Positions 24,227 through 42,000 of a stretch of 64,000 nt of DNA are shown here, in pieces. The notes under the pieces were generated by a model. That model was not told where the DNA came from and did not search any database. It saw only the letters and a program-made list of their open reading frames with translations. The stretch's first letter is position 1; each line of letters starts with the position of its first letter. The translations under genes were made by a program, and so were the position numbers. Origin of the DNA: Zeaxanthinibacter enoshimensis (GTDB lineage: Bacteria > Bacteroidota > Bacteroidia > Flavobacteriales > Flavobacteriaceae); assembly GCF_004362865.1 (NCBI RefSeq), contig NZ_SNYI01000003.1:434001-498000 (forward strand), read 5' to 3'.

Positions 24227-24552
24227 TAGGGTTGGTCTTTAATGCTGTCTTCGTATTCTATAAGATAGATTTCCTCGTTTTTCTTTTTGAGGTAATACTG
24301 TTCCCGGGCGAATTTCTCAATTTCCTTGGGATCTGAAAGTTTTTCGATGATCTCTTTATCCTTGGCAATTTCCTGCCTGAGGAATTCCTGTTGCTTTTCG
24401 AGCTTGCGGATCTCCTTTCTCAGCTCTAAATGGATAAGCAGGGAATTGGTGTCGAAAAAAAGCATCCAGATCAAGAATACAGTGAGGATCAAAACGTACA
24501 TGTTACTTACGATCCCAAACCATTTCTTCTTTTTTAGATCTTTCAGTTTCAC
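24226..24552 (-). CDS. Septum formation initiator (FtsB/DivIC family)
   Basis: A 108-residue protein with one membrane segment (about residues 13-32, IVSNMYVLILTVFLIWMLFF) followed by a coiled coil (about 38-78, RKEIRKLEKQQEFLRQEIAK) and a short end containing FAREQYYLKKKNEEIYLIE, the conserved FtsB/DivIC box. It would join the FtsQ-FtsL-FtsB divisome complex. It overlaps udk by 4 bp and the mutase small-subunit gene by 1 bp, an arrangement common in Flavobacteriaceae. Confidence 0.88.
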   Translation of the reverse strand: MKLKDLKKKKWFGIVSNMYVLILTVFLIWMLFFDTNSLLIHLELRKEIRKLEKQQEFLRQEIAKDKEIIEKLSDPKEIEKFAREQYYLKKKNEEIYLIEYEDSIKDQP

Positions 24553-25157
24553 AGCAGTTTTTCGATTATAATAGTTCTCACGATGTCAACGGCAACCGTG
24601 TTGTATTTATTATTCGGTATAATAATATCGGCGTGTTCCTTAGTGGGTTCTATGAACTGGTCATGCATAGGTTTCAGGGTAGTCTGGTACCGGTACAGGA
24701 CCTCGTCTATATCCCTGCCGCGTTCATTGATATCCCTTTTTAATCTCCTGATGAGACGCTCATCAGAATCGGCATGAACAAAAATCTTTATATCAAACAT
24801 TTCCCGGATCTCGGGGTGGGTCAGGATAAGAATCCCTTCCACGATCATCACCTTGCTCGGGGGGGTATGCACGGTCTGACCTGTCCTGTTATGCGAGGCA
24901 AAGGAATATACCGGTTGTTGAATGGATTTTCCCGCACGGAGCTGGGTGAGGTGCTCTCCCAGTAATTTGAAGTCGATTGCCTTGGGGTGGTCAAAATTGA
25001 TCTTTCCCCGTTCTTCGAAAGAAAGATGTGACAGATCGTTATAGTAAGAATCCTGGGATATTACACTGACCTCCTTGTCCGGTAATTCTTCAATGATCTG
25101 ATTGACAACGGTTGTCTTTCCGCAACCTGTTCCTCCCGCGATTCCAATGATCAGCAT
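24549..25157 (-). CDS. udk: Uridine kinase
   Basis: A 202-residue P-loop kinase of the pyrimidine salvage pathway that phosphorylates uridine and cytidine. Walker A GIAGGTGCGKTTVVNQI, the substrate loop ISQDSYYNDLSHLSFEE, NFDHPKAIDF, and VEGILILTHPEIREMFDIKI (Walker B-like) followed by RLIRRLKRDINERGRD. It is the first gene of the udk-divIC-mutA-scpA run. Confidence 0.95.
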   Translation of the reverse strand: MLIIGIAGGTGCGKTTVVNQIIEELPDKEVSVISQDSYYNDLSHLSFEERGKINFDHPKAIDFKLLGEHLTQLRAGKSIQQPVYSFASHNRTGQTVHTPPSKVMIVEGILILTHPEIREMFDIKIFVHADSDERLIRRLKRDINERGRDIDEVLYRYQTTLKPMHDQFIEPTKEHADIIIPNNKYNTVAVDIVRTIIIEKLL

Positions 25158-25252
25158 CTGCTATAATTTTGGTCCAAAAATAAGGATTTGAGCCGAAACG
25201 AATAGTGCTTAAAATGCTTTTTACAAACCCGGGCCGATAGCCTGTAAATTAA

Positions 25253-26326
25253 TCAGGGTTCATAGATTACGCCGCTGCTCGAGTCTTTTTGAGCGCCGGT
25301 GACGGAACATAGCACGTTCTTCTCTCCCTCGCAACGCATTGCGCCCATGAGGGCGAAAACAAGAGCTTCCTTAAATTCGACCAGGGTACGATCCGGGATG
25401 ACGACTTCTGCCAGATCTGCCAGCATTTCCTTCAGCGTTTCGGTAAGAAAGGGATTAAAAGCTCCACCGCCTGTTACAAGAACCCGGGAGCTGGTTTTTT
25501 CAGCGTGTTGTTGTATCGCTATAGCTACCTGCTGGCAGATGTGGTGCACCGAAGTGTGGAGCAGGTCTTCCACCGGGTAATCGTTGTTTTCAATAAGGGG
25601 AACAACCTCCTCCAGGAACCATTCGTATCCCGTGGATTTAGGCATGGGCTGGCTGTAGTACGGCAGGTTATTCAATGCTGTCAATAGATCTTTTTGTAAA
25701 ACACCCTTTCGGGCCAGGGCACCGTCTTTATCGTAGTCCATTCCGATCTTCCCAACGATATGGTTAAGTACCATATTGGCAAGGCCGATATCGTAAGCCA
25801 CCCTTTTCCCGTTTTTCTCAAAGGAGATATTACTGATGCCTCCAAGGTTGAGGCAGAATTCGTAATCGCCAAAGAACACCCTATCTCCTATAGGAACCAG
25901 GGGCGCGCCTTGCCCCCCCAGCACCACATCCTGGGAACGAAAATCAGCTACAGTTCTCAAACCACTGGCGTGAGCTACATTCTGGCCATAGCCTAACTGG
26001 AAGGTGTAACCAGCTTGTGGCTGGTGGTGCGAGGTATGCCCATGACTGGCAATGAGATCGATCTCCAGTCCATTTTCCGAGGCAAATTCCCTGGCTCTCT
26101 TTCCAAGCCAGGATCCGTATTCATGGTGCAGTCTCAGCAGTTCCGTGGCCGGTAACTGGATGGAATCTTTTAACCTTTGTCGCCACTCAGCCGTATAGGG
26201 AATGCTTTTATGTGCTTTTATCTGGTGCTGCCAGCCATTCTCTTCCCTGCTGATATGGCAGTAAGCAAGATCCAGGCCATCCAGGGAGGTCCCGGACATC
26301 ATTCCAAGTACTTTATATTGTGTCAT
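25253..26326 (-). CDS. anmK: Anhydro-N-acetylmuramic acid kinase
   Basis: A 357-residue ASKHA-fold kinase that opens and phosphorylates 1,6-anhydro-MurNAc to MurNAc-6-phosphate. Signatures: MMSGTSLDGLDLAYC at the N-terminus (ATP phosphate loop), SHGHTSHHQPQAGYTFQLG, VADFRSQDVVLGGQGAPLVP with the catalytic Asp, NLGGISNI, and LVTGGGAFNPFL. It is the last gene of the five-gene minus-strand recycling set; its product feeds MurQ. Its start overlaps the GH3 stop by 4 bp. Confidence 0.95.
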   Translation of the reverse strand: MTQYKVLGMMSGTSLDGLDLAYCHISREENGWQHQIKAHKSIPYTAEWRQRLKDSIQLPATELLRLHHEYGSWLGKRAREFASENGLEIDLIASHGHTSHHQPQAGYTFQLGYGQNVAHASGLRTVADFRSQDVVLGGQGAPLVPIGDRVFFGDYEFCLNLGGISNISFEKNGKRVAYDIGLANMVLNHIVGKIGMDYDKDGALARKGVLQKDLLTALNNLPYYSQPMPKSTGYEWFLEEVVPLIENNDYPVEDLLHTSVHHICQQVAIAIQQHAEKTSSRVLVTGGGAFNPFLTETLKEMLADLAEVVIPDRTLVEFKEALVFALMGAMRCEGEKNVLCSVTGAQKDSSSGVIYEP

Positions 26327-27918
26327 ATGCTGTGATTTTTCAAGGTTACCGGGAGCCTTCCGGGAGCCTGGGTTTTTCCCAGGAAATACAGGGCCGCTTG
26401 CTGCTGGAAAGGCAGCATATCCTGGTAGGCTACTACTACTGTCTTTGCTGCCTGAAGATCCAGTAGGTCCAGTACGTAGGGATTTCCGAATAGATACAAC
26501 ACGACCTCGCGATCGCGAAACAGTTGATCTAACAAAGCCAGGACTTCGCTGCTGATATCAAAATTATTGGCAGGTTTAACTTTGGGAGGAAACAGCCCTA
26601 TGACCAATGGTTTTTTCGTTTTACCAAGTCTTGCATCCGGGTTATTAGTAGTCGGGTCAATATGCATTATTTCGGACATATCAGCCCCGATCTCTGTGAA
26701 AAAGGCAGGAGCAGCGATTTTTGAAATCGCAAAGCACTCAAAATCTCCCTGCTGCAATTCTTTTTTTAACCCGGGATCTTCGAACAGGCAGGTAAGACTT
26801 GCCTGGGCTAATTCCTTGTTCAGGCTGTATGGATCTGCCGGTTCCGAGAAAGATTCCGGCTGTTTGTCAATTGCACGGGATTTAAGCTCCCATACCCTGT
26901 TAAATGCTTCCTCAATTACCCCGGTGTCGGCTTTTTCCAGGATCATTTCTATACCTTCTTGCACATGCTCTGTAAAACACAATACATCATTACCTGCGTT
27001 AAAGGCAGCGTATTCCAGGCCACCTTTTTCCGGGAAAAGACTTGAAACCGCATGCATGTTAAGGGCGTCTGATACAACCACTCCTTTAAACCCCAGCTGC
27101 TCCCGTAAAATATCTTTGATGATCAGGGGTGAGATGGTAGCCGGAGTTTTTTCTGCCGGATCCAGGACAGGTACCGAAAGGTGGCCCACCATAACCGAAT
27201 CTACCCCGGCTTCGATCAGGGCGCGAAATGGCGGAAATTCTCGCTTCCCGAGCAGTTCCCTGTCGGCCGTGATCAGGGGCAGGCCCAGGTGGGAATCCGT
27301 AGCAGTATCCCCGTGACCGGGAAAATGCTTTGCTGACGTCAGAACTCCACCGGCTTGCAGGCCCTGGTTAAAAGCGACCGACTTACGGGCTACCAGTTCG
27401 GCATCCTCGCCGAAGGACCGGTAGCCGATAACCGGATTCTCCGGATTGCAATTGACATCCGCAACCGGTGCAAAATTCCAGTGAATGCCCTGGTTTATAC
27501 AATCTTCCCCAACCGCCTTTCCGACTCTGAAAAGAAGATCTTCCTTTCCCTGGATCGCTCCAAGGGTAATGGCATAAGGGTATTGGGGGGTGTCTTCTAT
27601 TCGCATAGCCAGGCCCCATTCGGCGTCTATGCTGATCAGGAGCGGGACAGGCGCTGCAGCCTGGTAGCGAAGTATCAGCTGTCTTAATACAGCTAAGCTT
27701 TCTTTATTATATTCAATCTTTTTAGCTCCTTCAAAGTTAGTCGCGGCACTGGCCCGGCTGTGAAAAAAGCAGATCCCGCCAATGTACTGGTTGTGGATCA
27801 GATTCTCCAGTTTCCGGATTTCTTCCTCCGTATCATTGATAAAGGCGGCAGGCATAAATAATTGCCCGACCTTCTGGGTGGTGCTTAATTGTTCCGGGGA
27901 TACTGAATTGTATGGCAT
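26323..27918 (-). CDS. Glycoside hydrolase family 3, NagZ-like beta-N-acetylglucosaminidase
   Basis: About 531 residues from the ATG at 27918; an upstream start at 27954 would overlap the permease gene. The GH3 barrel is typical of NagZ-type enzymes: QKVGQLFMPA, IDAEWGLAMR, KHFPGHGDTATDSHLGLP (the His/Asp dyad acting as acid/base) and VVSDALNMHAVS (Asp nucleophile). A C-terminal alpha/beta sandwich of about 170 residues follows, unlike the 340-residue single-domain NagZ of E. coli. It should remove GlcNAc from anhydromuropeptides, giving the substrate of AnmK. No signal peptide is seen, so it is probably cytosolic, after import by the AmpG-like permease. Confidence 0.88.
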   Translation of the reverse strand: MPYNSVSPEQLSTTQKVGQLFMPAAFINDTEEEIRKLENLIHNQYIGGICFFHSRASAATNFEGAKKIEYNKESLAVLRQLILRYQAAAPVPLLISIDAEWGLAMRIEDTPQYPYAITLGAIQGKEDLLFRVGKAVGEDCINQGIHWNFAPVADVNCNPENPVIGYRSFGEDAELVARKSVAFNQGLQAGGVLTSAKHFPGHGDTATDSHLGLPLITADRELLGKREFPPFRALIEAGVDSVMVGHLSVPVLDPAEKTPATISPLIIKDILREQLGFKGVVVSDALNMHAVSSLFPEKGGLEYAAFNAGNDVLCFTEHVQEGIEMILEKADTGVIEEAFNRVWELKSRAIDKQPESFSEPADPYSLNKELAQASLTCLFEDPGLKKELQQGDFECFAISKIAAPAFFTEIGADMSEIMHIDPTTNNPDARLGKTKKPLVIGLFPPKVKPANNFDISSEVLALLDQLFRDREVVLYLFGNPYVLDLLDLQAAKTVVVAYQDMLPFQQQAALYFLGKTQAPGRLPVTLKNHSI

Positions 27919-27925
27919 AGTGCAG

Positions 27926-29188
27926 TTATTCGTTGGATTTTTTCCCGTAATCATCGGGATATTTCAGGAATCTGAGCATCAGTAATGCAGGGAGTGCTGC
28001 GATCACCACCCAGATAAAGAATCCCGCATAACCTAACCATTCCTGTATATATCCGCTGATCATCCCGGGTAGCATCATCCCCAGGGCCATAAATCCCGTG
28101 GCAATGGCATAGTGGGAAGTTTTAGAGTTGCCATCCGCTATATAGATCAGGTAAATAAGGAATGCGGCGAAACCAAAGCCGTATCCAAATTGTTCCAGGA
28201 CGACCGTTGCTACGATAGCGCCCATGTTCGTGGTCTGTGTGACAGCAAGTATGGCGTATAGGATATTAGGGGCATTCAGGGATAGCACCATGGGCAACAT
28301 CCATTTCCGCAACCCATCCCTGGAGATAAGGATACCTCCAAGAATTCCTCCGAGGGATAACATGATAACCCCGATTGTCCCGTAGATGATGCCGATGGCC
28401 TTGGTAGATAGCCCCAGTCCGCCGTCCTCTGAGCCATCCAGCAAGAATGGCTGGGCCATTTTAACCAATTGGGATTCCCCCAGGCGGTAACACAGGATAA
28501 AGCCCAGGGCCAGCCCGATCTGTGGTTTTTTAAAGAAGGAAACAAACACTTCCATGAAATCTTTCGGCTTTTCCCGGTTGGGGTCCGACGCTTCAAATTT
28601 CGGCGTGACAAAGAAATTGGTGATCGTTAACAGCAGCATAAGGACCGATGCGGACACCATGGTGATAGACCAAGCACGGGTATTATCACCTAGCTGTTCT
28701 TCCAGGAAGCCTGCCAGGACTACGATCAGTCCGCTCCCTGTGACCATGGCAAGCCTGTAAAAAGTACTCCGGATCCCCACAAAAAAAGACTGTTTCTTTT
28801 GGGTCAGGCCGATCATATAATATCCGTCAGCAGCAATATCATTAGTGGCGGATGCAAATGCAGCAACCCAGAAGCAGGCAAGGGTGGTGATAAAGAACTG
28901 GTTGGTGGGAAGAGTGAGGCCGACCCCCAGCAACGCAAGGGCAATGACTAATTGCATAGCCAGGAACCAGGTTCGTTTGGTACTCCTGAGGTCAACAAAG
29001 GGGCTCCATAGGGGTTTGAGGACCCATGGCAAGTACAGCCAGCTAGTGTACAATCCTATATCCGCGTTAGATATGTCTAAGCGTTTATACATGGTGACCG
29101 ATACGGTTACGATCAGGATATAGGGGATGCCTTGGGTGAAATAAAGGGTTGGGACCCAGGCCCATGCCCGTTTATCTTTTTGAATCAT
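27926..29188 (-). CDS. AmpG-like major facilitator permease (muropeptide import)
   Basis: A 420-residue protein with about 12 membrane segments and the MFS pattern. The N-terminal WVPTLYFTQGIPYILIVTV, SWLYLPWVLKPLWSPFVD and ATNDIAADGYYMIGL resemble AmpG, the importer of GlcNAc-anhydroMurNAc peptides. A link to peptidoglycan recycling follows from its neighbours NagZ-like, AnmK, NagB and MurQ. The start overlaps the stop of the GH10-like gene by 17 bp. Confidence 0.86.
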   Translation of the reverse strand: MIQKDKRAWAWVPTLYFTQGIPYILIVTVSVTMYKRLDISNADIGLYTSWLYLPWVLKPLWSPFVDLRSTKRTWFLAMQLVIALALLGVGLTLPTNQFFITTLACFWVAAFASATNDIAADGYYMIGLTQKKQSFFVGIRSTFYRLAMVTGSGLIVVLAGFLEEQLGDNTRAWSITMVSASVLMLLLTITNFFVTPKFEASDPNREKPKDFMEVFVSFFKKPQIGLALGFILCYRLGESQLVKMAQPFLLDGSEDGGLGLSTKAIGIIYGTIGVIMLSLGGILGGILISRDGLRKWMLPMVLSLNAPNILYAILAVTQTTNMGAIVATVVLEQFGYGFGFAAFLIYLIYIADGNSKTSHYAIATGFMALGMMLPGMISGYIQEWLGYAGFFIWVVIAALPALLMLRFLKYPDDYGKKSNE

Positions 29189-30707
29189 GTTGTCGACTTT
29201 GGTCTAAATGTAGAAAAATAGGATGGCTTTCTTTTCCATAGCGATCCAAAAAGCTGACGAAAATCTTTTTCCTGTTCCGGATAAGATCTCCGGTCAGTTG
29301 AAAGCGGTTGTCTTCATTTATCCTGATCTTCGCCAGGAGATTTTTGGGGTCTGCAGGAAGTTTTGCATTCTTTTTCCGGGCCTTGTAGACGAGGGCATAA
29401 TCCCAGTTGGCAGCCTCCGCGGGAGATATAGTAAAATCTACGGAACCCCCGGAGATACTGTACTCGAGCAGATCAGGAGTGACGGCCGGGAAGGAAGAAG
29501 ACAGGGGGCTGACAGGCGTCAGCGCAGGCAGGGGGTATAACCCTTTTTCAAATGTGTTTACCACCTCTTTTTCCGCATTCATAAGGGATTTGGCGCTGAA
29601 ATAGGCATTACCCTGAATCCCGCCGCTATTCCGGGCGAATTCTACCTGTTGCCGGAGTTCATCTTTCTGATCCCATGCCTTGTCAGGATTGTTCTTAACC
29701 TTATAGGCCCCGTTACCTATATACAGGTTGGCCGTGCTTTTATTTTCTGACCACCAGCTGACGATCTTCCTGTGGGAGGCCGGTTCATAATCCATACTCC
29801 AGTAAACCTGGGGGATCAGGTAGTCTATCCAGCCTTGTTCCATCCACAAGAGGGGATCAGCATACAGGTCTTCGTAAGTTGTCTGCCCGGCTTTGGTATC
29901 CGAACCCCTTGGGTCAGTGTCTTTGTTTTTCCAGACCCCGAACGGGCTGATTCCAAATTGTACCCATGGCTTGTGTTTCTTGATAGCCACATGGATCTTT
30001 TTGACCAATGAATCAACGTTACTCCTCCGCCAGTCATCGATAGACTGGCCCGGCCTGGCGTACTCCCGGAAGGCCGTAGAATCATTGAATTTTTCGCCGC
30101 TGATCTTGTAAGGGTAGAAATAGTCGTCAAAATGAATGGCATCTACCGGGTAATTCAGTACAATTTCTTCCATAATGGCAGTTAGTTTTTCCTGTACTTC
30201 AGGTAAACCCGGGTTGTAATAATATTTATTCCCATATGGCAGCATCCATTCCGGGTGCTTCTTCAGGTCGTGCTCTTCCGCGAGGGAAACGGTATCCAGG
30301 CTCATTGTTGCCCGGTAGGGATTAAGCCAGGCATGGAACTCCATCCCTTTTTCATGAGATGTCTTTACCATCCATTCAAGGGGATCCGTGGTAGTAGGAG
30401 CCTTACCTTCTTTACCGGTAAGGTATCGAGACCAGGGGGCCAGGTCTGTAGGGTAAAAGGCATCCCCGGCTGTCCTTACCTGGACAATGACAGCGTTGAA
30501 ATTCAGGTTTTTATAGAAATCAAGGATCCGGATAAATTCCTCTTGCTGGGTTTCCCATGGGGCATTTGGATCTTTTGGCCAGTCGATATTGGCCACCGTG
30601 GCAATCCAGACTCCCCTGAATTCCCGTTTGGGGGCAGGGGAGGTGTTCCGGAATACTCCACAAGAAGCCACTAAGAATACCAATAGTAAGCCAATGGTTG
30701 GTCTCAT
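29172..30707 (-). CDS. Lipoprotein glycan hydrolase, GHL10/DigH-like
   Basis: A 511-residue lipoprotein (signal ending VASC, Cys16). The GHL10 (DUF187) barrel has FRGVWIATVANIDWPKDP, NFNAVIVQVRTAGDAFYP, PWSRYLTG, and the catalytic-site stretch YPVDAIHFDDYFYPY, then QFGISPFGVW and DYLIPQVYWS. A C-terminal beta domain of about 110 residues follows. The E. coli relative DigH (YddW) is a divisome-linked enzyme that cuts peptidoglycan strands stripped of peptides; the neighbours here support a cell-wall substrate. It would release glycan for import by the adjacent permease. Confidence 0.85.
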   Translation of the reverse strand: MRPTIGLLLVFLVASCGVFRNTSPAPKREFRGVWIATVANIDWPKDPNAPWETQQEEFIRILDFYKNLNFNAVIVQVRTAGDAFYPTDLAPWSRYLTGKEGKAPTTTDPLEWMVKTSHEKGMEFHAWLNPYRATMSLDTVSLAEEHDLKKHPEWMLPYGNKYYYNPGLPEVQEKLTAIMEEIVLNYPVDAIHFDDYFYPYKISGEKFNDSTAFREYARPGQSIDDWRRSNVDSLVKKIHVAIKKHKPWVQFGISPFGVWKNKDTDPRGSDTKAGQTTYEDLYADPLLWMEQGWIDYLIPQVYWSMDYEPASHRKIVSWWSENKSTANLYIGNGAYKVKNNPDKAWDQKDELRQQVEFARNSGGIQGNAYFSAKSLMNAEKEVVNTFEKGLYPLPALTPVSPLSSSFPAVTPDLLEYSISGGSVDFTISPAEAANWDYALVYKARKKNAKLPADPKNLLAKIRINEDNRFQLTGDLIRNRKKIFVSFLDRYGKESHPIFLHLDQSRQHDSKR

Positions 30708-30764
30708 AAAATGGATGGATTTGGGTGGTGAAGATATTTAATTCTTCTATTCTTTAATCAGGGA

Positions 30765-32708
30765 TTATTGGAAATGATACCTGACAAACCCTTCCATGGC
30801 TTCGTATTCTGCAAGTCCCAGGGCATTGTATTTCCTCGCTGTTTCCTTGTTCCGCTGTTCTGCTCTTTGCCAGAATTCGCGTTCATCATTACCGGGGAAC
30901 ATGGCGCTGTCTTTCTGGGACTGGTGCTTAAAGATGGCATTCTTTTTTCGCTCCATATCTTTTGGACCAATTGGGATAGCCATTTCCATATCCGCAATAT
31001 CCCATTCCTGCCAGGCCCCGCGGTAGAGCCAGACATAGCAATCAGAGATCCAGTCGGCCTCTTCCTTAACTAATCGGTCCAGGGCTGCATAGATCACCTG
31101 CAGGCAGACCCGGTGGGTACCATGGGGATCGGAGAGGTCCCCGGCGGCAAAGATCTGGTGAGGTTTTATCTTTTGCAGCAGGTCATAAGTAATCTGGATG
31201 TCTTCTTCCGAATGTGGTTTTTTCTTAACGGTACCTGTTTCGTAGAAAGGCAGGTTCTGGAAGTGCGCATTGGCTTCTTTAACACCGCAATAACGACAGG
31301 CTGCCAGCGCTTCTCCTTTCCTGATCAGGCCTTTGAACCTCTGGATCTCGGGACTGTCTACCTGTCCCGGGGTCTTGCTGCTGAGGAATTCCCGGACCTC
31401 CCTGAATTGTTTCTTCAGGGTTTCGTTCTGTTCCTGAATATCCGTGGCGAAATCCAGGAACCGGATCACTTCATCGTCAAAGACCGCGATATTCCCGGAG
31501 GTCTGGTAGGCTACATGGACATCATGTCCCTGGTCTACCAGCCGCAATAGGGTTCCACCCATAGAGATCACATCGTCATCCGGGTGGGGACTGAATACCA
31601 GGGACCGTTTCGGGTACGGATCTTTGCGCTCGGGCCGCCTGCTGTCGTCCGCATTTGGTTTACCTCCCGGCCACCCGGTAATGGTACTTTGTAACTGGTT
31701 AAACACCCTGAGGTTGATATCTTCCGCAGAACCGATCTCTGCAACCAGGTTCCCCATCCCGTATTCATTATAATCTTCATTGGTCAGTTTCAGGATAGCC
31801 TTGTCCAGTTTATGAGAAAGCCAGATAGTGGCCTTTTTGATCAGGTTGTCATCCCACTCACACTCGCTGACCAGCCATGGAGTGCTCAGCCGGGTCAGGG
31901 AGGAAGCGGCAGCGTGATCCAGGATAAAATCACAATTATTATGGTGTTGCAGGAAAGTAGCCGGAACCGATTCCCTGATCTCACCTTCCACGGCCTGCCT
32001 GATGATATCTGATTTACCTTCTCCCCAGGCCATCAGGACAATACGTTTTGCACTCATAATAGTGCCCACCCCCATGGTGATCGCTTTAGAGGGAACATTT
32101 TCGAGCCCGAAGAAATCACTGGCAGCATCCAGGCGCGTCACCCTGTCCAGTCTTACCATCCGTGTCTTACTGTTAATGGAAGACCCGGGTTCGTTGAATC
32201 CCACATGTCCTGTCCGGCCTATCCCTAGCACCTGTATATCGATACCGCCTGCCTCTTTGATCTTCTTCTCGTATGCCTCGCAGAACTCCCGCACATCCTC
32301 CTTGTCCAGGGTGCCGTCAGGGATATGAACATTCGATTTCTTGATGTCGATATGATCAAATAAATGTTCGTTCATAAAACGGACATAACTGTGGATAGAA
32401 TCCGGCTCCATTGGATAGTATTCATCCAGGTTAAATGTGATCACATTCTTAAAGCTCAGTCCTTCTTCTTTGTGGAATTTCACCAGGAAATCATACATTT
32501 TAGTAGGAGTTGAGCCAGTAGCCAGTCCCAGTACCACGTTCTTGCCCTGTTTCTGACGTTGGCGGATCAATTCGGCTATTTCATTAGCCACGTAGAAAGA
32601 AGCTTCTTGAGAATTGTCGTGGATATGGGTGTCTATCTTTTCAAATTTCCGGGATTCCTCAGCTGTGGGATACCCGGGAATACGGGGTCTGGTTTGCAAA
32701 TCGGCCAT
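30765..32708 (-). CDS. nagB: Glucosamine-6-phosphate deaminase fused to LmbE/PIG-L-type deacetylase domain
   Basis: A 647-residue two-domain protein. Residues about 30-345 are NagB: LGLATGSTPTKMYDFLV, NLDEYYPM (Asp95, general base) and LGIGRTGHVGFNEPGSS. In the last box the Asp of the E. coli sequence (GxGxDGH) is Thr166, while His168 and Glu173 remain. Residues about 365-640 are LmbE-like: SPHPDDDVISMGGTLL (zinc ligands His375, Asp378) and DLSDPHGTHRVC (His529/His532). The first domain makes fructose-6-phosphate and ammonia from GlcN-6-P; the second belongs to a family containing GlcNAc deacetylases. This fusion recurs in Bacteroidota. It is the first gene of the recycling set and faces the deoR-murQ unit. 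Confidence 0.93.
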   Translation of the reverse strand: MADLQTRPRIPGYPTAEESRKFEKIDTHIHDNSQEASFYVANEIAELIRQRQKQGKNVVLGLATGSTPTKMYDFLVKFHKEEGLSFKNVITFNLDEYYPMEPDSIHSYVRFMNEHLFDHIDIKKSNVHIPDGTLDKEDVREFCEAYEKKIKEAGGIDIQVLGIGRTGHVGFNEPGSSINSKTRMVRLDRVTRLDAASDFFGLENVPSKAITMGVGTIMSAKRIVLMAWGEGKSDIIRQAVEGEIRESVPATFLQHHNNCDFILDHAAASSLTRLSTPWLVSECEWDDNLIKKATIWLSHKLDKAILKLTNEDYNEYGMGNLVAEIGSAEDINLRVFNQLQSTITGWPGGKPNADDSRRPERKDPYPKRSLVFSPHPDDDVISMGGTLLRLVDQGHDVHVAYQTSGNIAVFDDEVIRFLDFATDIQEQNETLKKQFREVREFLSSKTPGQVDSPEIQRFKGLIRKGEALAACRYCGVKEANAHFQNLPFYETGTVKKKPHSEEDIQITYDLLQKIKPHQIFAAGDLSDPHGTHRVCLQVIYAALDRLVKEEADWISDCYVWLYRGAWQEWDIADMEMAIPIGPKDMERKKNAIFKHQSQKDSAMFPGNDEREFWQRAEQRNKETARKYNALGLAEYEAMEGFVRYHFQ

Positions 32709-32866
32709 GACGTAAAGGGTTTAAAGTGAACTGCAAAGATAAAAATAATTCGATAATGTTGCAGCTTTTTGCTGTTTTTATTGCAGTAACTTGCTCTATT
32801 TATGTCTTAAAGATATTAAAGCGACAAAAAACGGCAGAATGAATATTTTGTTATCTTTGCCCCGAT
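32709..32866. promoter_or_regulatory. Divergent control region of the recycling locus
   Basis: Minus-strand box TATCTTTG (plus-strand 32734-32741) points to nagB; plus-strand TATCTTTG (32852-32859) points to the deoR gene and ends 7 bp before its ATG, so that transcript is nearly leaderless. Between them are CTGCAA (32731-32736), TTGCAG (32759-32764) and TTGCAG (32781-32786); the last two are 22 bp apart, two helical turns. They are candidate DeoR-family operators. No -33 TTTG at standard spacing was found for either. Confidence 0.5.
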
Positions 32867-33616
32867 ATGCTGAAAGAAGAGAGACAATTAAAGATCCTAA
32901 ACGAAGTAGAGCTTCATAACCGCGTGTTGCTTTCCGATATTGCAGAGATGCTGGATGTCTCCGTGGATACGATCCGCAGGGACGTCAAGGAACTCGATGC
33001 AGAGAACAAGTTGCGGAAGGTTCACGGCGGCGCGATCTCCATGGGATTTACCGATCCAACTGCAGACCATTCCAAGATCTACGCGCTCAATGAAAAAAGT
33101 ATTATTGCCCAGAAAGCCACGGGATTACTGAGAGACGGGGCCGTGATCTTTATCGATGGGGGAACGACCTGCCTGGAGTTAGCCCGGCAGATCCCCAGGC
33201 AGCTGCACCTCACCTGTTTCACCCTGAGTCTCCCGGTGGCTTTACAGCTGTTGACCAAGCCCAATATAGAAGTGATCTTCCTGGGAGGAACTATCTCCCG
33301 TGAAGCCCAGATATCTGTCGGCGCCAGTGCTATACACCAGTTGTCCGAGATCCGGGTGGATTATGGTTTCATCGGGACGGGGTACGTGGATGCACTGCAT
33401 GGGCTGACGGAGTTTGACTGGGACATCGTCCAGGTCAAAAAAGGAGTGATACAAGCGTCTAAAAAAACGGTACTTTTATGCATCTCGGAAAAGCTGAATT
33501 CGCAACACCGCTACAAGACCTGCAATATAAATGCTATTAACACAATGATCACTGAGCTGGAACCGGAAAATAACCTGCTCAATATGTTCAGAAAACACGA
33601 AATACACCTGCTTTAA
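32867..33616 (+). CDS. DeoR-family transcriptional regulator
   Basis: A 249-residue repressor-type protein. The N-terminal winged helix-turn-helix carries the DeoR signature (LLSDIAEMLDVSVDTIRRDV, then ENKLRKVHGGAIS). The C-terminal sugar-phosphate sensor domain has IFIDGGTTCLELARQIP, IFLGGTISREAQISVGASA and DYGFIGTGYVD. Coupled to murQ by a 1-bp gap and divergent from nagB, it most likely senses an amino-sugar phosphate such as MurNAc-6-P, GlcNAc-6-P or GlcN-6-P and controls both units. This is inferred from position. Confidence 0.92.
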   Translation: MLKEERQLKILNEVELHNRVLLSDIAEMLDVSVDTIRRDVKELDAENKLRKVHGGAISMGFTDPTADHSKIYALNEKSIIAQKATGLLRDGAVIFIDGGTTCLELARQIPRQLHLTCFTLSLPVALQLLTKPNIEVIFLGGTISREAQISVGASAIHQLSEIRVDYGFIGTGYVDALHGLTEFDWDIVQVKKGVIQASKKTVLLCISEKLNSQHRYKTCNINAINTMITELEPENNLLNMFRKHEIHLL

Positions 33617-33617
33617 T

Positions 33618-34433
33618 ATGTCAGAGTACCAAAAAATCACCGAATCACCGTCTCATTACGAGCATTTGGAACAAATGGATACTGCAGATATCCTTGCAAA
33701 CATGAACCGGGAAGACCGCAAAGTAGCCGATGCCGTTGCCCTGGTCATACCCCGTATCACCGAATTGGTCGATGGCCTTGAAGAACGCTTTTACCAGGGG
33801 GGGAGATTATTTTACATCGGGGCCGGTACCAGTGGGAGACTGGGAATCCTTGATGCATCAGAAATACCACCAACCTATGGGATGCCGCACAACCGTGTGA
33901 TCGGGCTGATCGCAGGCGGTGACGGGGCCATCAGGAAAGCAGTGGAGAATGCAGAAGATGATACAGAACAGGCGTGGAAAGATTTAGAGGCTCATGAGAT
34001 CACAGCACTGGATACCGTGGTGGGGATCGCGGCTTCAGGTACTACACCGTACGTTCTTGGGGGTGTAAGATCAGCGAAGGAAAAAGGACTGCTGACCGCG
34101 GGGATTACGAATAACCCTGGTTCTCCTTTGGCCCAGGCCGTGGATATCCCTATTGAGATCAACGTGGGACCCGAATTTGTAACCGGGAGTACACGGATGA
34201 AAAGCGGAACTTCCCAGAAGCTTGCCCTTAATATGATCTCTACAGCGCTCATGATCAGGATAGGCCGTGTGAAAGGAAACAAAATGGTGAATATGCAGCT
34301 GAGCAATAACAAACTTGTAGATCGTGGTACCAGGTATCTCATGGAAGGGCTGCACCTGGATTACCAGGAAGCCCAGGATGTGCTAAAGAAATACGGCTCG
34401 GTTCAGAAAGCAATGGAAGCCTACGGTAAGTAA
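33618..34433 (+). CDS. murQ: N-acetylmuramic acid 6-phosphate etherase
   Basis: A 271-residue SIS-fold enzyme that splits MurNAc-6-P into GlcNAc-6-P and D-lactate. Signatures: YIGAGTSGRLGILDASEIPP (sugar-phosphate site and catalytic Glu), GLIAGGDGAIRKAVENAEDD, VVGIAASGTTPYVLGG, TNNPGSPLAQ and TGSTRMKSGTSQKLALNMIS. It begins 1 bp after the regulator gene. The stop is 1 bp from that of the converging cytochrome gene. Confidence 0.96.
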   Translation: MSEYQKITESPSHYEHLEQMDTADILANMNREDRKVADAVALVIPRITELVDGLEERFYQGGRLFYIGAGTSGRLGILDASEIPPTYGMPHNRVIGLIAGGDGAIRKAVENAEDDTEQAWKDLEAHEITALDTVVGIAASGTTPYVLGGVRSAKEKGLLTAGITNNPGSPLAQAVDIPIEINVGPEFVTGSTRMKSGTSQKLALNMISTALMIRIGRVKGNKMVNMQLSNNKLVDRGTRYLMEGLHLDYQEAQDVLKKYGSVQKAMEAYGK

Positions 34434-36091: not shown

Positions 36092-39000
36092 ATGCTCCCA
36101 AGTAACTCAAAACGGGACGTAATTGCCATTGTACTGACTCTGATGTCATTGGCATTTGCTTTTGCCGGAAACCATCCAGGTAACCCGGATCCCATAATCG
36201 GGGACCGGAATGCCTACACAGAGCTTACTGCCCATGCCAGCAGTAGTTCTGCCCACTCACCGGATCTTGCTGGATCCGAGAATACAGAAACACTTCTGCC
36301 TTCCTTTTACGCCACGATCATCCAGAACGCGGATGAAGAGGTCAATTGCCCCAATGATGGTAGCACCCTGGCCAAATTCTTCCTTTGCGGTACCAGTGAT
36401 GTCAGGACCATCAGCCTTAACCAGAGCGGAAGCAGCTACGAATGGCAGAAACTGGATAGTAACCGCTGTGCCACTTCTGTCATGGCCGATTGTGCTAATA
36501 CAGACAGCAGCTGTTACGATACTGTCGGAAACGGGTCTACCTACAACCTGGATTCTTCCGGGGAATTCCGGGTCCGCGTAGACGGAGGACAATATTATTA
36601 TTTTAAATCCACCCTGAACCCTCTTGATCCCCAGTTGATCAAAGAAGATATTATATGCGGAAATCCCGGGAGAGTAGAGGTCACCAATGTGCCGGCAGGA
36701 TATGAATACAGCCTGAATGACAGTGCCGGACCTTACCAGGACACCCCTTATTTTGATATTACCTCAGCCGGAGACTATAAGGTATGGGTGCGGTTAAAGA
36801 ATGTTTCAAGTACTGCATGTTTATTTCCATCTAATACGGTAACGGTGGCAAGTCTTGACATGAGTGCTTCCGTTACTGCAAATGATATTCTGTGCAGCGG
36901 GGAGTTGGGCAGTATAGATGTGAATGTCTCCGGGGTGCCAGGGTTCTTTACCTACAGGCTGATCAAGAACGGGGTTACAGTGGACACCTTTGGTCCTAAT
37001 TCTGCCTCTTCTTACAGTTTTGATAATGTAAGCCCGGGTACTTACAGCGTAAGGATCGTGACCAATAAATGTAACGAGCTGATCACCACGGATGTTAATA
37101 ATGATCCCATCCGGATCGGGAACGGGATAAGTCCGTTAGCCGTATCTGCGACCGCGTCTGACAGTTTTGGCTGTGGTGCTTCTTCCGTTGACGTCAGTAT
37201 TGAGACCTCGGGAGGGACAGCTCCTTACCGCTACAGCCTGGACGGAGGCAGCAGTTTCAGTTCCACGTATAATAACAGTACGGTCTTCACGGTTACCTCG
37301 GCCGGCACCTATAATATATTGGTAGAAGATTCCAACGGGTGTAGCAAGACTGCGAATATAGACGTAGAAGACCTTCCTCCGCCCGTCTATACGGTATCTT
37401 CCGATGACGCTACCTGTGGCAGCAGTAATGACGGACGGATCAGTTTTAATGTCAGTAACGGTTATGGTTATCAGATGACCTATAGTATCAACAACGGGGC
37501 ATCGTACCAGAACAACAATATATTTAACGGACTTGCACCTGGCTCTTACCTGGTGCTTATCCGTTACCAGCAGGGAGCATTTAGCTGTACCACTCCGGTG
37601 AGTACCGAAGTGATCAGTGCTCCAACCGCCATCAACGGGACAGCCAGCGCCGATTCCGAACCCAGCTGCCTGGATGAAAATGGAGGCCAGATATCGTTTT
37701 CAGGAGTTAGCGGTGGAACTTCACCTTACCAGTTTAGTGTTGGGGCAGGCTTCAGCAGCAACCCTGTCTTCAGCAACCTGGGTACAGGAAGCTATACCCC
37801 CAGGATCAGGGATGCCAATGGTTGCGTACGAAGTTTAAGTCCTATTACCTTCAATAACCTGGATAAACCGACGGATATGGCCTTTTCCATATCCAATATT
37901 GATTGTATTACAAATACGGCATCAGTAAATGTTGCTGTTACCGGTGGTACTTCTCCCTTTACCTACGAGATCATCGCACCTGCTGCGAATGCCACGAATA
38001 ATGGCAATAACAATGTATTCAGCGGACTTGGACTGGGAACGTATACCTTCCGGGTGACCGATGACGAGGGCTGTTCTTATACCGAAGCTTATGCTATTAC
38101 CGACATCAGCTCCATATCTGTCCAGGCCCAGGCCACCAAGGTGGTTACCTGCGTTGGCGATGCGGACGGTGAAGGAAGGTTCTTAGTCGATGGTTTTGAC
38201 GGCACTTACAGCTATGTTATTGATGGAGGACTCCCGGTTGTTGGTGAGAGCGGTGGAATTATCACCGTTACCGGTTTAAGCGCCGGGAGCTACGATATAT
38301 TGGTGACCGATGAGGATACCAATTGTACCGATACCGCTACCCTGGTGATCCAGGAGCCCGCCTCGGCCTTTACCATCACAAATCTTAACGTGAGCCCGAT
38401 GAACTGCCAGAATAATAACCGGGGAGGGGTAAGCATTAATACCTCCGGGGGATGGGGTGGTAATAAATATACGGTAACCCAACCCAACGGATCCGTGCGG
38501 GGCCCACAAAACAGTAATACCTTCTCTGACCTGAGCCAGAGCGGGGTTTACCAGGTAAGCGTAACAGATGCTAATGGTTGTACCCAGACAGATAGTTTTT
38601 CCCTGACTGCCCTGGCGGCACCGGTTCTGAGTGTGAATGCCGCCGGTTCTGATTATTGTTATGACAATTTTGATGCGGCCAGCATTGCTCTGGACGCTAC
38701 GGGTGGGGCAGGGCCGTACGAATTCCGTGTGAACGGTGGTGCATGGGACGCGGCCAGTACCTTTACTGGTTTAACTCCGGGTACCTACCGGTTCGAAGTA
38801 AGTGACACCAATGATTGCCAGGACCTGGTTTGGGTCACGATTGCCCCGGAAATGACCGCCAGTGCCACTACGATCAGAGAATTGACCTGTGGAGGCCCCT
38901 CGGCCCAGATCAGGGTCAACATCAGTAACGGCTACCATTCCGGAAATGATTACGTGAGCTACGAGGTACGAATTGACGGTGGTGCTTATTCCGCCAGTGC

Positions 39001-42000
39001 CTTCCCTATAAGTGGAAATTCCTTCGTCTATGACATTCCTAATGACGGAAGCATCCTTAGCGATACTACTTTCCAGTTCGAGGTTACCGATACCAGGGGA
39101 TGTACGACGGAGACCAACGTGGTAACTATCTCGCCGCCCGAATCCATTGCCGGTAGCACCCTGGTAACCGATACGAGTTGCGGGCAGAACAACGGGATTG
39201 TAGAACTGATTCCTGATACCAGCCAGGGTGTTCCGCCTTATGAATATAGTTCTGACGGTGGGGTAACCTTTGGCTCACAGCCTATTTTTTCGGGTTATGC
39301 CCCGGGAACCTATAATGATTTCATGATACGTGACAGCAGGGGGTGCGCCAGCCCGCTGCTAAGTGCTACCGTCAGTAGCAGCAGCCCGATCGATGCGAAT
39401 GTAACTGCAAATGATGCGGTTTGTTCCGCGGGTAGTGTGGAAGGTTCTATTGATGTTAATAACGTGCTGAACGGAAATGCACAGTATACATTTACCCTTA
39501 CCGATATCAACGGAAATACCGTAGCAGTTGCCGGTCCTATGGCAGCGGATAACGTGAATTTCCCCAATGTGGCCCCGGGTACCTATACAGTGATTACAAC
39601 TGATGCCAGCGGTTGTGAAGACAGGGACATGGTGAGTGTGAGCCAGAACCAGATAGACCTTATCCCTGTGAATACCACAGACCCACAGGATTGTACAATG
39701 ACCTTTACCTATGAAGTAGATATTGTAGGAGGAACCGCACCTTACACCATCGGTCTCGTAGGCCAGCCGCAAACTGCCCCGAATGTCGATGCCGACACAC
39801 ATGATTTTACCGGGCAGATCGACTATGGAGTTACATATTTTGTGGAAGTACACGATGCTTTGGGTTGTGTCTATATAGAGCAGATAGACCCGATAGATGG
39901 TCCTTCTCCTATTGCAGTGACTGCAACAGCCACCACGGCGTCCTGTGAACCGGGGGGGAATGGAAGCATAAGCTTTGAGATTGACGGTCTCCCTTCGCCG
40001 GCAGACCTCACCCTGCAGTTGCAGGATACGGATACCGGTGCAATTGTCAGTGGTCCGACGGTAGTGAATAATGTTGCTATACCTTATACTGACTCATTCA
40101 GTAACCTGCCTCCGGGGAATTACCAGATCCTGGTACAGGATAATAATACCCAGTGTAATGCCAGTACCCTGGTCTCTATTACACAGAATATTCCTGCACT
40201 GGTAGTAGATAACAATGAGCCCGCTAACTGTAATGTGGGTGCCCTGGTAACTGTCCGTGGGAATGGAGGAAACGGGCCTTACAGCTTTGCATACGTACCC
40301 GCAGGTGATCCTGCTCCCGTGGTCTTCACCACCGATACCACCTTCGAAATAGCAGGTCCTTTCCCGGCAGATTACAATTTTTACGTCCAGGATGCTTCAG
40401 GTTGTGTAAGCTATACCACTGTACAGGTTACAGAAACGGCAGGAGTTCCTGACCCTCAGGTAGATGTTGTGAACCAGTGTTCTGCCCAGAGTAATTATAC
40501 GGTGAACGTAACTTCCCCATTATCTACGGGAAGCGGCTTGCCGGAAGAAACTTATCAATACGATATAGGGGGTGGTTTCCAGGATAGTCCTAATTTCCTG
40601 GTACCCAACCCCGGCGACTATACCATTGTCGTCAGGGATGGCAATGGCTGTACCAATACGGTTATCGCACAGGTATTCGATTTCTTTGCGATCAGCGCCA
40701 ATGCCTCAACCGAACCGACCTGTAACGCGGGAGACGGGATCATCACAGTGAATACGAGTGGGGGTAGTGGTAACTTCAGGTTTGAACTGGACGACGGAAT
40801 TAATCCTACCGTGGTACAGCTTAACGATAACGTATTTACCAATATCAGTCCCGGAACCTATAATATCCTGGTAACTGACCTGGATTCCAATACCACGCCA
40901 CTTTGCTCCGATACTACTTCCGTAGAGGTCACTATCGTGGATTCCCCGGAAATAGGTGCAACTCCCAAGGGAGATATCAGTTGCTTTGGAGCGAATGATG
41001 GGTACATTAACGTGGAGCTTTTACCGGCCACGGCCACAGACGGACCCTTCAGTTATGTCCTATATGACGGATCGACCACAAATATTATTCGGGGATCACA
41101 GTCGTCTTCCCTGTTTGACAATCTCTCACCCGGAACATACCAGGTAGAGGTGATCTCTGACCGGGGATGTACAGACCGTTCTGCGGATGTCACCATCAGT
41201 GAGCCCAGTATCTTACAGCTGAATACTGAGCATACCGATTTTACCTGTGATCCGAGCAGTAACCGCTTCAGTACAGCGACCATCACGGCCTTTACAGATA
41301 CAAACGGGGATGGCAGCGGTATCAATACGGGTACGGCTCCGTATACTTATAGTATGAATGACGGTACCCCTGAATTTGACGGTTCCAATTTCCAGACCAG
41401 TAACCAGTTCGAAGTTGTAGATAATGGCTCCTCCCAGACCATAATCATTACGGCAAGGGATCAGAATGGCTGTGAACAAACAGAAACTATAACCCTGGAT
41501 CCGCCTTCCGGGCTCGACTTCAGTTTTAACGTGAACCCTATCAGCTGTGACGCCAGTGGGAGTGGAGTGAACCCGGGAAATATTGAAATTATCATAGCCC
41601 AGGGACCAGGAAATTACGATGTTGAGATCCTGCCGATAGGCTCAGAACCCATCCAGAGCTCTGGAGGTTCAGACCGCGTAGTCTGGGATATCAGTACCCC
41701 GGGAGATTACATCTTCGCCGTGACCGATGTGGGCAGTGGAGGTTGTACCTATCTTACCCCGGTGGTCAACGTACCTGAATATAATAATATCGTTGCGACA
41801 ATTGCCGAGGCCGAGCCCGTAACCTGTTTTAACGGAACAGACGGGGCTATCAGCCTGCAGGTCGATAATTATTCCGGTATCTATAATTACGAAGTATTTA
41901 CCCGGGATAACAGCGGGGTGGAAACCTCGACAGGAGTAACGGGCTCTTTTGACACCAATAACCCCGTGGCAAACCCGGAAATAATTACAGGTCTGCCCGC

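Follow-up and report, generated by a model that had tools for sequence, protein, structure and literature searches.

Within the window, i.e., the whole stretch of 64,000 nucleotides of Zeaxanthinibacter enoshimensis DNA that was analyzed, seven genes are grouped between positions 25253 and 34433 (Table 1). The initial annotation had described this region as a peptidoglycan-recycling locus, a description that is borne out here, since all seven genes named in it are present as open frames and their families could be assigned by Pfam and NCBIfam profile matches. Judged by these matches, the group is a peptidoglycan-recycling cassette. The GH3 protein, in which KHFPGHGDT is present, scores 145.7 bits with the NagZ model NF003740, below its cut-off of 207, and MurQ lies slightly below the cut-off of TIGR00274 (296.3 versus 302 bits). 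The GHL10 hydrolase is taken here to be of the DigH type.

The grouping of these genes is not due to chance, because the same neighbors recur in the flanks of the 80 closest relatives of the fusion protein that were listed. Counting blastp matches above 150 bits, with some flanks incomplete, DeoR was found in the flank of at least 76 of these 80 relatives, MurQ of at least 72, AmpG and GH3 of at least 69 each, AnmK of at least 52, and DigH of at least 46. The neighbors of the fusion in other genomes include NagP-type, NagX-like, GH20, GH18, and MurQ proteins. Moreover, several fusions are located within GH92/GH130 loci, and some adjoin APH- or GHMP-type kinases, or GH20 and GH18.

Table 1. Genes of the cassette and features predicted in the fusion protein, with window positions.
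Feature	Position	Strand	Support
AnmK, anhydro-N-acetylmuramic acid kinase	25253-26326	-	NF007144 509.9 bits (cut-off 436)
GH3, NagZ-like beta-N-acetylglucosaminidase	26323-27954	-	PF00933 240.5 bits
AmpG-family muropeptide permease	27926-29188	-	TIGR00901 197.5 bits (below cut-off 350)
GHL10 (DigH-like) glycan hydrolase	29172-30707	-	PF02638 249.2 bits
NagB-PIG-L fusion, 647 aa	30765-32708	-	NF002557 1082.9 bits (cut-off 384); PF01182 and PF02585
PIG-L/LmbE deacetylase-type domain, residues 366-647	30768-31613	-	structural matches 6p2t, 3wl3, 1q74
His532 in DPHGTH, putative third metal ligand	31113-31115	-	invariant in 197/197 distinct fusions
HPDDD metal/catalytic motif, residues 375-379	31572-31586	-	H375, D377, D378, D379 invariant in 197/197 distinct fusions
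Helical linker, residues 274-365	31614-31889	-	model helices 287-301, 310-315, 319-325, 328-342
NagB domain, residues 25-273; D95, H168, E173, R183, K232 present	31890-32636	-	structural match 2bkv; residues aligned with 2bkv and 1ne7
DeoR-family regulator, divergent from the fusion	32867-33616	+	PF00455, PF08220
MurQ, MurNAc-6-phosphate etherase	33618-34433	+	NF003915 368.7 bits (cut-off 168)

Architecture and conserved residues of the fusion protein

The protein that had been annotated as a NagB fused to an LmbE/PIG-L domain does have this architecture, with matches to PF01182 in residues 33-257 and to PF02585 in residues 370-542, and with both folds predicted. It belongs to NF002557 across both domains, residues 16-646 being matched to positions 20-652 of the 653 of the model. 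The AlphaFold model of the fusion has a mean pLDDT of 91.0 and a pTM of 0.85, and the linker between the domains is scarcely covered by structural matches.

The NagB domain exceeds the cut-off of TIGR00502 (262.0 versus 236.9 bits) and carries D95, H168, E173, and K232, predicted catalytic residues that presumably correspond to D72, H143, E148, and K208 of E. coli NagB. Position 166, which is Thr in the fusion and Asp in human NagB, was considered as a sign of a dead NagB half. This idea was abandoned, since Asn occupies the position in B. subtilis NagB (2bkv) and since T, S, N, and V alternate there among the fusions. In turn, the PIG-L domain scores 69.0 bits with PF02585 (cut-off 28.2) and contains the full set of putative active-site residues, H375, D377, D378, and H532. 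The HPDDD motif had correctly been annotated as kept and, as it starts at residue 375, the numbering of His375 and Asp378 is right. We take the PIG-L zinc deacetylase signature HPDD...HxxH to comprise the metal ligands and the catalytic Asp, and the role of His532 as a ligand is presumed from the motifs of MshB and BshB. No match of the fusion to the NagA model TIGR00221 was listed at 0.001.

The invariance of the metal-site residues, D379 included, extends over 197 distinct fusions, i.e., the window protein and 196 relatives, of which 79 come from named loci and 117 from further genomes. Two lineages that form separate clades in the tree carry substitutions in the NagB half, namely D95Y plus H168N in f11 (both fusion genomes sampled) and D95A/S/N in f37 (all seven fusion genomes sampled, one of them with a short frame). 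Each of these nine genomes contains MurQ and a separate NagB with intact catalytic residues, and no NagA match at 1e-20 was found in any of them. The PIG-L motif is kept in all eight full-length f11 and f37 fusions, as would be expected for a deacetylase that is needed independently of the NagB half. In genome G219, the NagB and PIG-L halves are adjacent separate frames, a split that could be a frameshift in this draft of 250 contigs. In relatives of about 790 aa, the Glu of NagB is lost (FNEPG becomes FN[VI]xGS) and PHHDD and DTH are kept in all nine sequences read. An absence of the metal motif from this type, to which the missing HPDD had pointed, was rejected in view of PHHDD plus DTH.

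Occurrence of NagA, NagB, and PIG-L partners

The initial annotation had called for a search of the whole genome for nagA, the presence of which it would have counted towards a refutation. In this genome of 3.34 Mb, no NagA was found with TIGR00221, nor anything near its cut-off, all 23 of 23 candidates being scored: the best stretch reached 35.3 bits and the best of the frames then scanned (990 aa, with a part of 623 aa giving the score) 57.7 bits versus a cut-off of 225.65. Likewise, a profile built from 24 NagA sequences gave no match at 1e-20 among the six of 23 candidates scored with it. The search with TIGR00221 yielded 16 weak stretches with E up to 1, the eight best of which were traced to six amidohydrolase frames. 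These were considered as alternative NagA genes and rejected, since none is near the cut-off, and in NCBIfam and Pfam scans they look like generic amidohydrolases. A second NagB was not found in the genome either, the sole other match being a 6-phosphogluconolactonase. The other two PIG-L genes encode BshB1 and a Mca-like frame that scores below its cut-off. The genome also contains a homologue (C2:644790-645632, 32% identity) of a kinase-like protein that lies near MurQ and the fusion elsewhere, its BadF-type Pfam match being below cut-off.

Co-occurrence was counted in a sample of Bacteroidota, and the counts are raw and ignore phylogeny. At most six NagA candidates per genome were scored at a match threshold of 1e-20, and B. 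subtilis, one NagA control, was unmatched at this threshold, so that some assignments to the class without NagA may be misses. With this reservation, NagA was not found in 101 of the 149 genomes with NagB, and 100 of these 101 have a PIG-L partner, as a fusion (91), as the long type (8), or as split frames (1). NagA is present in 29 of the 120 fusion genomes sampled versus 19 of the 29 genomes with a separate NagB only, and it was not found in the other 91 fusion genomes. Among the NagA-less genomes with a separate NagB, nine of ten keep a PIG-L partner, or eight of nine when a NagB match below the cut-off is set aside; in G031, G076, and G190, the matches counted as a separate NagB fall below the TIGR00502 cut-off and may stem from the protein of about 790 aa. 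A NagA-family gene lies directly beside the fusion in G068 and about 5 kb from it in G241. Moreover, 55 of the 211 genomes with MurQ have neither NagB, NagA, nor a long PIG-L partner and, thus, MurQ alone is no proof of obligatory deacetylation of GlcNAc-6-phosphate. In the control genomes, NF002557 exceeds its cut-off in one of 14.

A candidate GlcNAc-6-phosphate deacetylase in place of NagA

From the sequence features described above, the PIG-L domain is probably a non-orthologous GlcNAc-6-phosphate deacetylase that feeds NagB in place of the missing NagA. The initial proposal is thereby supported, both by the search for NagA in this genome and by the conservation of the PIG-L residues. Muropeptides would be imported and dismantled by the DigH-like hydrolase, AmpG, and the NagZ-like GH3 protein, and AnmK followed by MurQ would then generate GlcNAc-6-phosphate. 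The C-terminal PIG-L domain, as a zinc-type deacetylase, would remove the acetyl group in a step otherwise assigned to NagA, and the N-terminal NagB domain would convert GlcN-6-phosphate into fructose-6-phosphate and ammonia, the fusion thereby acting in the cytoplasm as the last step of the pathway. The substrate, the metal, the order of reactions, and the cytoplasmic location are those that we infer. That the product of one active site of the fusion is handed directly to the other is speculative, and the existence of NagB-substituted fusions and of the split frames in G219 suggests that one chain is not required, which makes this hand-over the weakest part of the initial proposal.

Alternatively, the PIG-L domain could deacetylate free GlcNAc that stems from the NagZ-like GH3 protein or from GH20/GH18 enzymes, and a kinase would then phosphorylate the glucosamine before it reaches NagB. 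Among PIG-L proteins of solved structure, those closest in sequence do use unphosphorylated sugars, e.g., diacetylchitobiose deacetylase, and this reading is also consistent with the fusions that adjoin APH- or GHMP-type kinases or GH20 and GH18, and with the homologue of a kinase-like protein in the same genome. However, MurQ, which flanks at least 72 of the 80 closest relatives listed, gives the 6-phosphate directly, and this product would be stranded. The linkage to NagB suggests a product that NagB can use directly. Free GlcNAc is an improbable substrate. The domain may have another or an additional substrate, since NagA coexists with the fusion in 29 of 120 genomes and the PIG-L residues are unchanged in those fusions. 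Another acetylated sugar phosphate or glycan fragment (e.g., ManNAc-6-phosphate, GalNAc-6-phosphate, or one derived from N-glycans) would be in line with the fusions found in GH92/GH130 loci, an unrecognized enzyme then handling GlcNAc-6-phosphate. This is improbable as well, as the sugar that peptidoglycan, GH20/GH18, and N-glycan-type loci with the fusion would have in common is GlcNAc, and as the PIG-L partner is kept in most NagA-less genomes with a separate NagB. That the domain is a non-catalytic structural or regulatory appendage of NagB, or catalyzes a reaction other than deacetylation, is very unlikely: the GalB hydratase (5cgz, Z 21.4) matches it as well as deacetylases do, so that the PIG-L fold alone does not decide function, but H375, D377, D378, and H532 are invariant in all 197 distinct fusions and persist in those with a substituted NagB half, and the PIG-L half has a frame of its own in G219, all of which argues for catalysis.

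Beyond this locus, we lean towards the view that, in Bacteroidota, amino-sugar catabolism is commonly entered by way of a GlcNAc-6-phosphate deacetylase of the PIG-L fold and not by way of NagA. This enzyme would have arisen fused or next to NagB, and the catalytic residues of the NagB half would have been lost, with the deacetylase half kept, in two lineages at least, to which the type of about 790 aa may add another. The latter type fits the proposal poorly, as, among the 27 genomes that contain it, 10 lack a NagB match and NagA occurs in 10. NagA is treated as characteristic of the catabolism of GlcNAc and of the amino sugars of peptidoglycan. If the proposal is true, the gap predicted in this pathway for many Bacteroidota is a false one, a widespread protein named only 'deaminase-like' has another activity, and a sugar phosphate of central metabolism joins the substrates of the PIG-L superfamily. 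The naturally occurring variants, in which the NagB half is substituted or the frames are split, render the claim testable domain by domain.

Comparison with known enzymes and families

The fused architecture is already known, the protein being a full-length member of the catalogued subfamily NF002557/PRK02122, 'glucosamine-6-phosphate deaminase-like protein'. This name mentions no deacetylase, an activity that the present proposal would give to the second half, and no such function for this half was found in the portion of the open-access literature that was searched, where the fusion itself was not mentioned in the titles and abstract openings listed either. Residues 25-272 of the fusion resemble B. 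subtilis NagB (2bkv) with a VIA-align Z of 38.1 over 242 aligned residues (rmsd 1.1, 42% identity), and D95, H168, E173, and K232 align to positions conserved in NagB; the fusion differs from 2bkv in the added linker and PIG-L domain. The latter, in turn, resembles in fold BshB (6p2t; Z 22.6, 211 aligned, rmsd 2.7), diacetylchitobiose deacetylase (3wl3; Z 21.8, 238 aligned, rmsd 4.5), and MshB (1q74; Z 18.4, 221 aligned, rmsd 3.4). Sequence matches to solved members are limited to roughly the N-terminal 55 residues of the domain, and these three enzymes share the HPDD motif with the fusion but differ in substrate. NagA (TIGR00221) belongs to the amidohydrolase superfamily, a family different from that of the fusion, and has the reaction and the place in the pathway proposed here for the PIG-L half, which would thus be a functional analogue of NagA and not a NagA.

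The cassette and its fused protein

Scanning the eight frames within 24549-34433 with Pfam and NCBIfam bore out the identities of the seven cassette genes named in the initial annotation, i.e., AnmK, a NagZ-like GH3 enzyme, an AmpG-family permease, a DigH-like GHL10 hydrolase, a DeoR regulator, MurQ, and a protein joining NagB to a PIG-L (LmbE) domain; the eighth frame encodes a uridine kinase. The observation of a recycling locus containing a NagB–PIG-L fusion is confirmed. The domains of the fusion follow the order NagB, helical linker, PIG-L and, since the protein belongs to NF002557, this architecture is already catalogued. Its closest named relatives among the matches listed are Flavobacteriaceae, e.g., Muriicola, Eudoraea, and Robiginitalea. 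Similarly short MurQ frames are shared by several other members of this family and class. The repetitive protein lies about 1.7 kb past MurQ, with two small genes intervening.

Coordinates of the features discussed (G000, genome of Z. enoshimensis; C2, one of its contigs; L numbers, loci)
Feature	Location	Strand	Remarks
NagB–PIG-L fusion, 647 aa	window 30765-32708	(-)	NCBIfam NF002557 'glucosamine-6-phosphate deaminase-like protein', 1082.9 bits, cut-off 384
MurQ, short, 271 aa	window 33618-34433		slightly below TIGR00274 cut-off
Repetitive protein, 2774 aa	window 36092-44416		apparently secreted (read from translation)
Open frame, 845 aa	G000 C2:765840-766244 (L003)		PIG-L domain with HPDDE, Mca-like, under cut-off
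BshB1	G000 C2:779526
Fusion halves as adjacent frames, NagB then PIG-L	L293:1459-3137 (genome G219, family f41)	same strand	each matches its own part of NF002557
NagX-like membrane acetyltransferase	L160:11560-12660		138 bits to NF046061, under cut-off; ten further loci of same cluster

In the AlphaFold model of the fusion (69 sequences, mean pLDDT 91.0, pTM 0.85), residues 25-272 match NagB 2bkv (Z 38.1, rmsd 1.1, 242 aligned), and the portion from about 366 to 647 resembles BshB (Z 22.6, 211 aligned, rmsd 2.7), diacetylchitobiose deacetylase 3wl3 (Z 21.8, 238 aligned, rmsd 4.5), and MshB (Z 18.4, 221 aligned, rmsd 3.4). Since GalB, a hydratase, shares this fold and reaches Z 21.4 against the model, the fold by itself does not identify the reaction. 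Residues 1-16 are modelled with low confidence and do not resemble a signal peptide, pointing to a cytoplasmic location.

Conservation was assessed across 197 non-redundant fusions, comprising the window protein plus 196 relatives (220 frames before duplicate removal, frames of up to 560 aa excluded). Every one of them keeps H375, D377, D378, D379, and H532 in the PIG-L half, and 196 keep H529. Replacements in the NagB half affect D95 in eight fusions and H168 in two; alignment to solved NagB structures identifies these positions as the LDEY aspartate and the GH(I/V) histidine, whose catalytic roles are presumably those of E. coli NagB.

NagA in the own genome and across the phylum

The genome of Z. 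enoshimensis comprises 3.34 Mb in 12 contigs, with an estimated completeness of 100%. The whole-genome search for nagA suggested in the initial annotation found none with TIGR00221 (23 of 23 candidates scored), the best stretch reaching 35.3 bits where the cut-off is 225.65. Six amidohydrolase frames lie behind the best stretches, and as whole frames they score at most 57.7 bits. The fusion is the only NagB of this genome, and the two remaining PIG-L genes are BshB1 and the Mca-like frame.

Among the 296 Bacteroidota genomes drawn as a phylum sample, the fusion scores above cut-off in 120. NagA-family genes were found in 50 at 1e-20 (42 above the TIGR00221 cut-off), with up to six candidates scored per genome and at a threshold where the B. 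subtilis control gave no NagA match, although every sequenced member of the Bacilli except one is reported to carry nagAB (PMC3648570). A profile built from those hits, and thus not independent of the first search, recovers the same 50 genomes. NagA occurs in 29 of the 120 fusion genomes versus 19 of the 29 with a separate NagB only (Fisher p 4e-5, relatedness uncorrected), or 17 of 26 of the latter once three sub-cut-off NagB matches are dropped (p 1e-4, relatedness uncorrected). The 29 genomes with both genes, which adjoin in G068 and lie about 5 kb apart in G241, are counter-evidence to a replacement of NagA, and the 35 distinct fusions read from NagA-bearing genomes show no change in their PIG-L residues.

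Fusions with an altered NagB half and related forms

Two families of genomes carry fusions with a substituted NagB half, namely f11 (G226, G234), with D95Y and H168N, and f37 (G167, G207, G215, G246, G258, G270, G278), in which D95 is replaced by A, S, or N. These losses comprise every fusion genome of both families in the sample, and the families form separate clades in the PIG-L-half tree (support 1.0 and 0.97). All nine genomes contain MurQ and a separate NagB with catalytic residues present (the match in G215 has one TAG reported inside), and none has NagA at 1e-20. The PIG-L motif is intact in all eight full-length fusions; the G246 frame, of 294 aa, leaves the PIG-L half outside the reading and is excluded from the 197. 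The substituted NagB halves are predicted to be inactive. If deamination were the sole use of the fusion, the whole protein would be expected to decay; instead, only the redundant half has decayed.

A diverged NagB–PIG-L relative of about 790 aa is present in 27 of the 296 genomes and was not detected in any genome together with the fusion (three candidates scored per genome). In the nine such proteins read (L294-L302, from 31 matched places), FNEPG has become FN[VI]xGS, while PHHDD and DTH are kept. Three proteins scanned gave no Pfam PIG-L match, and two scanned were both under the NF002557 cut-off. This type resembles the asymmetry of f11 and f37, but less cleanly, because its NagB half retains the Asp and His, a NagB match is lacking in 10 of the 27 genomes, and NagA is present in 10 of them.

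The fusion also occurs divided in G219, where NagA was not found. Its NagB (265 aa) and PIG-L (306 aa, with HPDDD) frames overlap by 34 bases in their stop-to-stop spans. A frameshift in this 250-contig draft retains some plausibility; the linker is largely absent between the halves, which speaks for a putatively true split.

NagA or a PIG-L partner occurs in 148 of 149 NagB genomes, each fusion being counted both as NagB and as partner. Since every fusion is both at once, only the comparison among separate-NagB genomes is free of circularity. A PIG-L partner is found there in 9 of 10 genomes without NagA (eight with the 790-aa type, plus G219; the exception is G148) versus 9 of 19 with NagA, all nine of the 790-aa type (p 0.04), or 8 of 9 versus 7 of 17 without the three weak NagB matches (p 0.04). 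A further point of counter-evidence is that NagB, NagA, and the 790-aa partner are all without a match in 55 of the 211 MurQ-bearing genomes of the phylum sample, which leaves the MurQ product GlcNAc-6-P unaccounted for in many relatives.

Taken from comparative genomics, the proposal that the fused domain acts as a deacetylase is well supported and quite probably correct, GlcNAc-6-P being its putative substrate, whereas the channelling of GlcN-6-P to the NagB half is unsupported.

Gene neighbourhoods and comparison with known systems

Around the best 80 of 576 confirmed places, taken as close relatives, blastp above 150 bits in the flanks detected DeoR (76/80), MurQ (72/80), AmpG (69/80), GH3 (69/80), AnmK (52/80), and DigH (46/80), with all six at 22 loci, some flanks being truncated. 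None of these 80 loci has NagA (blastp, two NagA queries, 1e-8). A distant set comprised 80 regions (at most 19.5 kb each), divided evenly between genomes with and without NagA (40 each), and 79 were compared (clusters within six genes, one representative typed each). Neighbours there include TonB/SusC (25 loci), GH20 (17), SusD (12), GH18 (8), an NagP-type MFS protein (14; representative 459 bits, under the cut-off of 625), and the NagX-like protein (11; cut-off 480 for the representative tabulated). MurQ, a weakly BadF-like kinase, GH92, and GH130 are less frequent. The sugar common to these contexts would be GlcNAc. A route through free GlcNAc is conceivable beside the deacetylation of GlcNAc-6-P; in its favour, one protein encoded in the own genome is homologous (32% identity) to a kinase-like protein with a BadF-type match under cut-off.

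The open-access literature searched yielded no paper pairing the deaminase name with LmbE or PIG-L; the function of the PIG-L half is apparently undescribed, although the architecture is known. A point of comparison is Echinicola vietnamensis, a member of Bacteroidota. NagA is reported to take part in glucosamine utilization in four of the five bacteria that rely on NagX (Fig. 3A-D), and the authors discuss the remaining panel, 3E, for E. vietnamensis (PMC9007349). The passages concerned name no NagA substitute in this organism, and the panel would fit the presence of one there.
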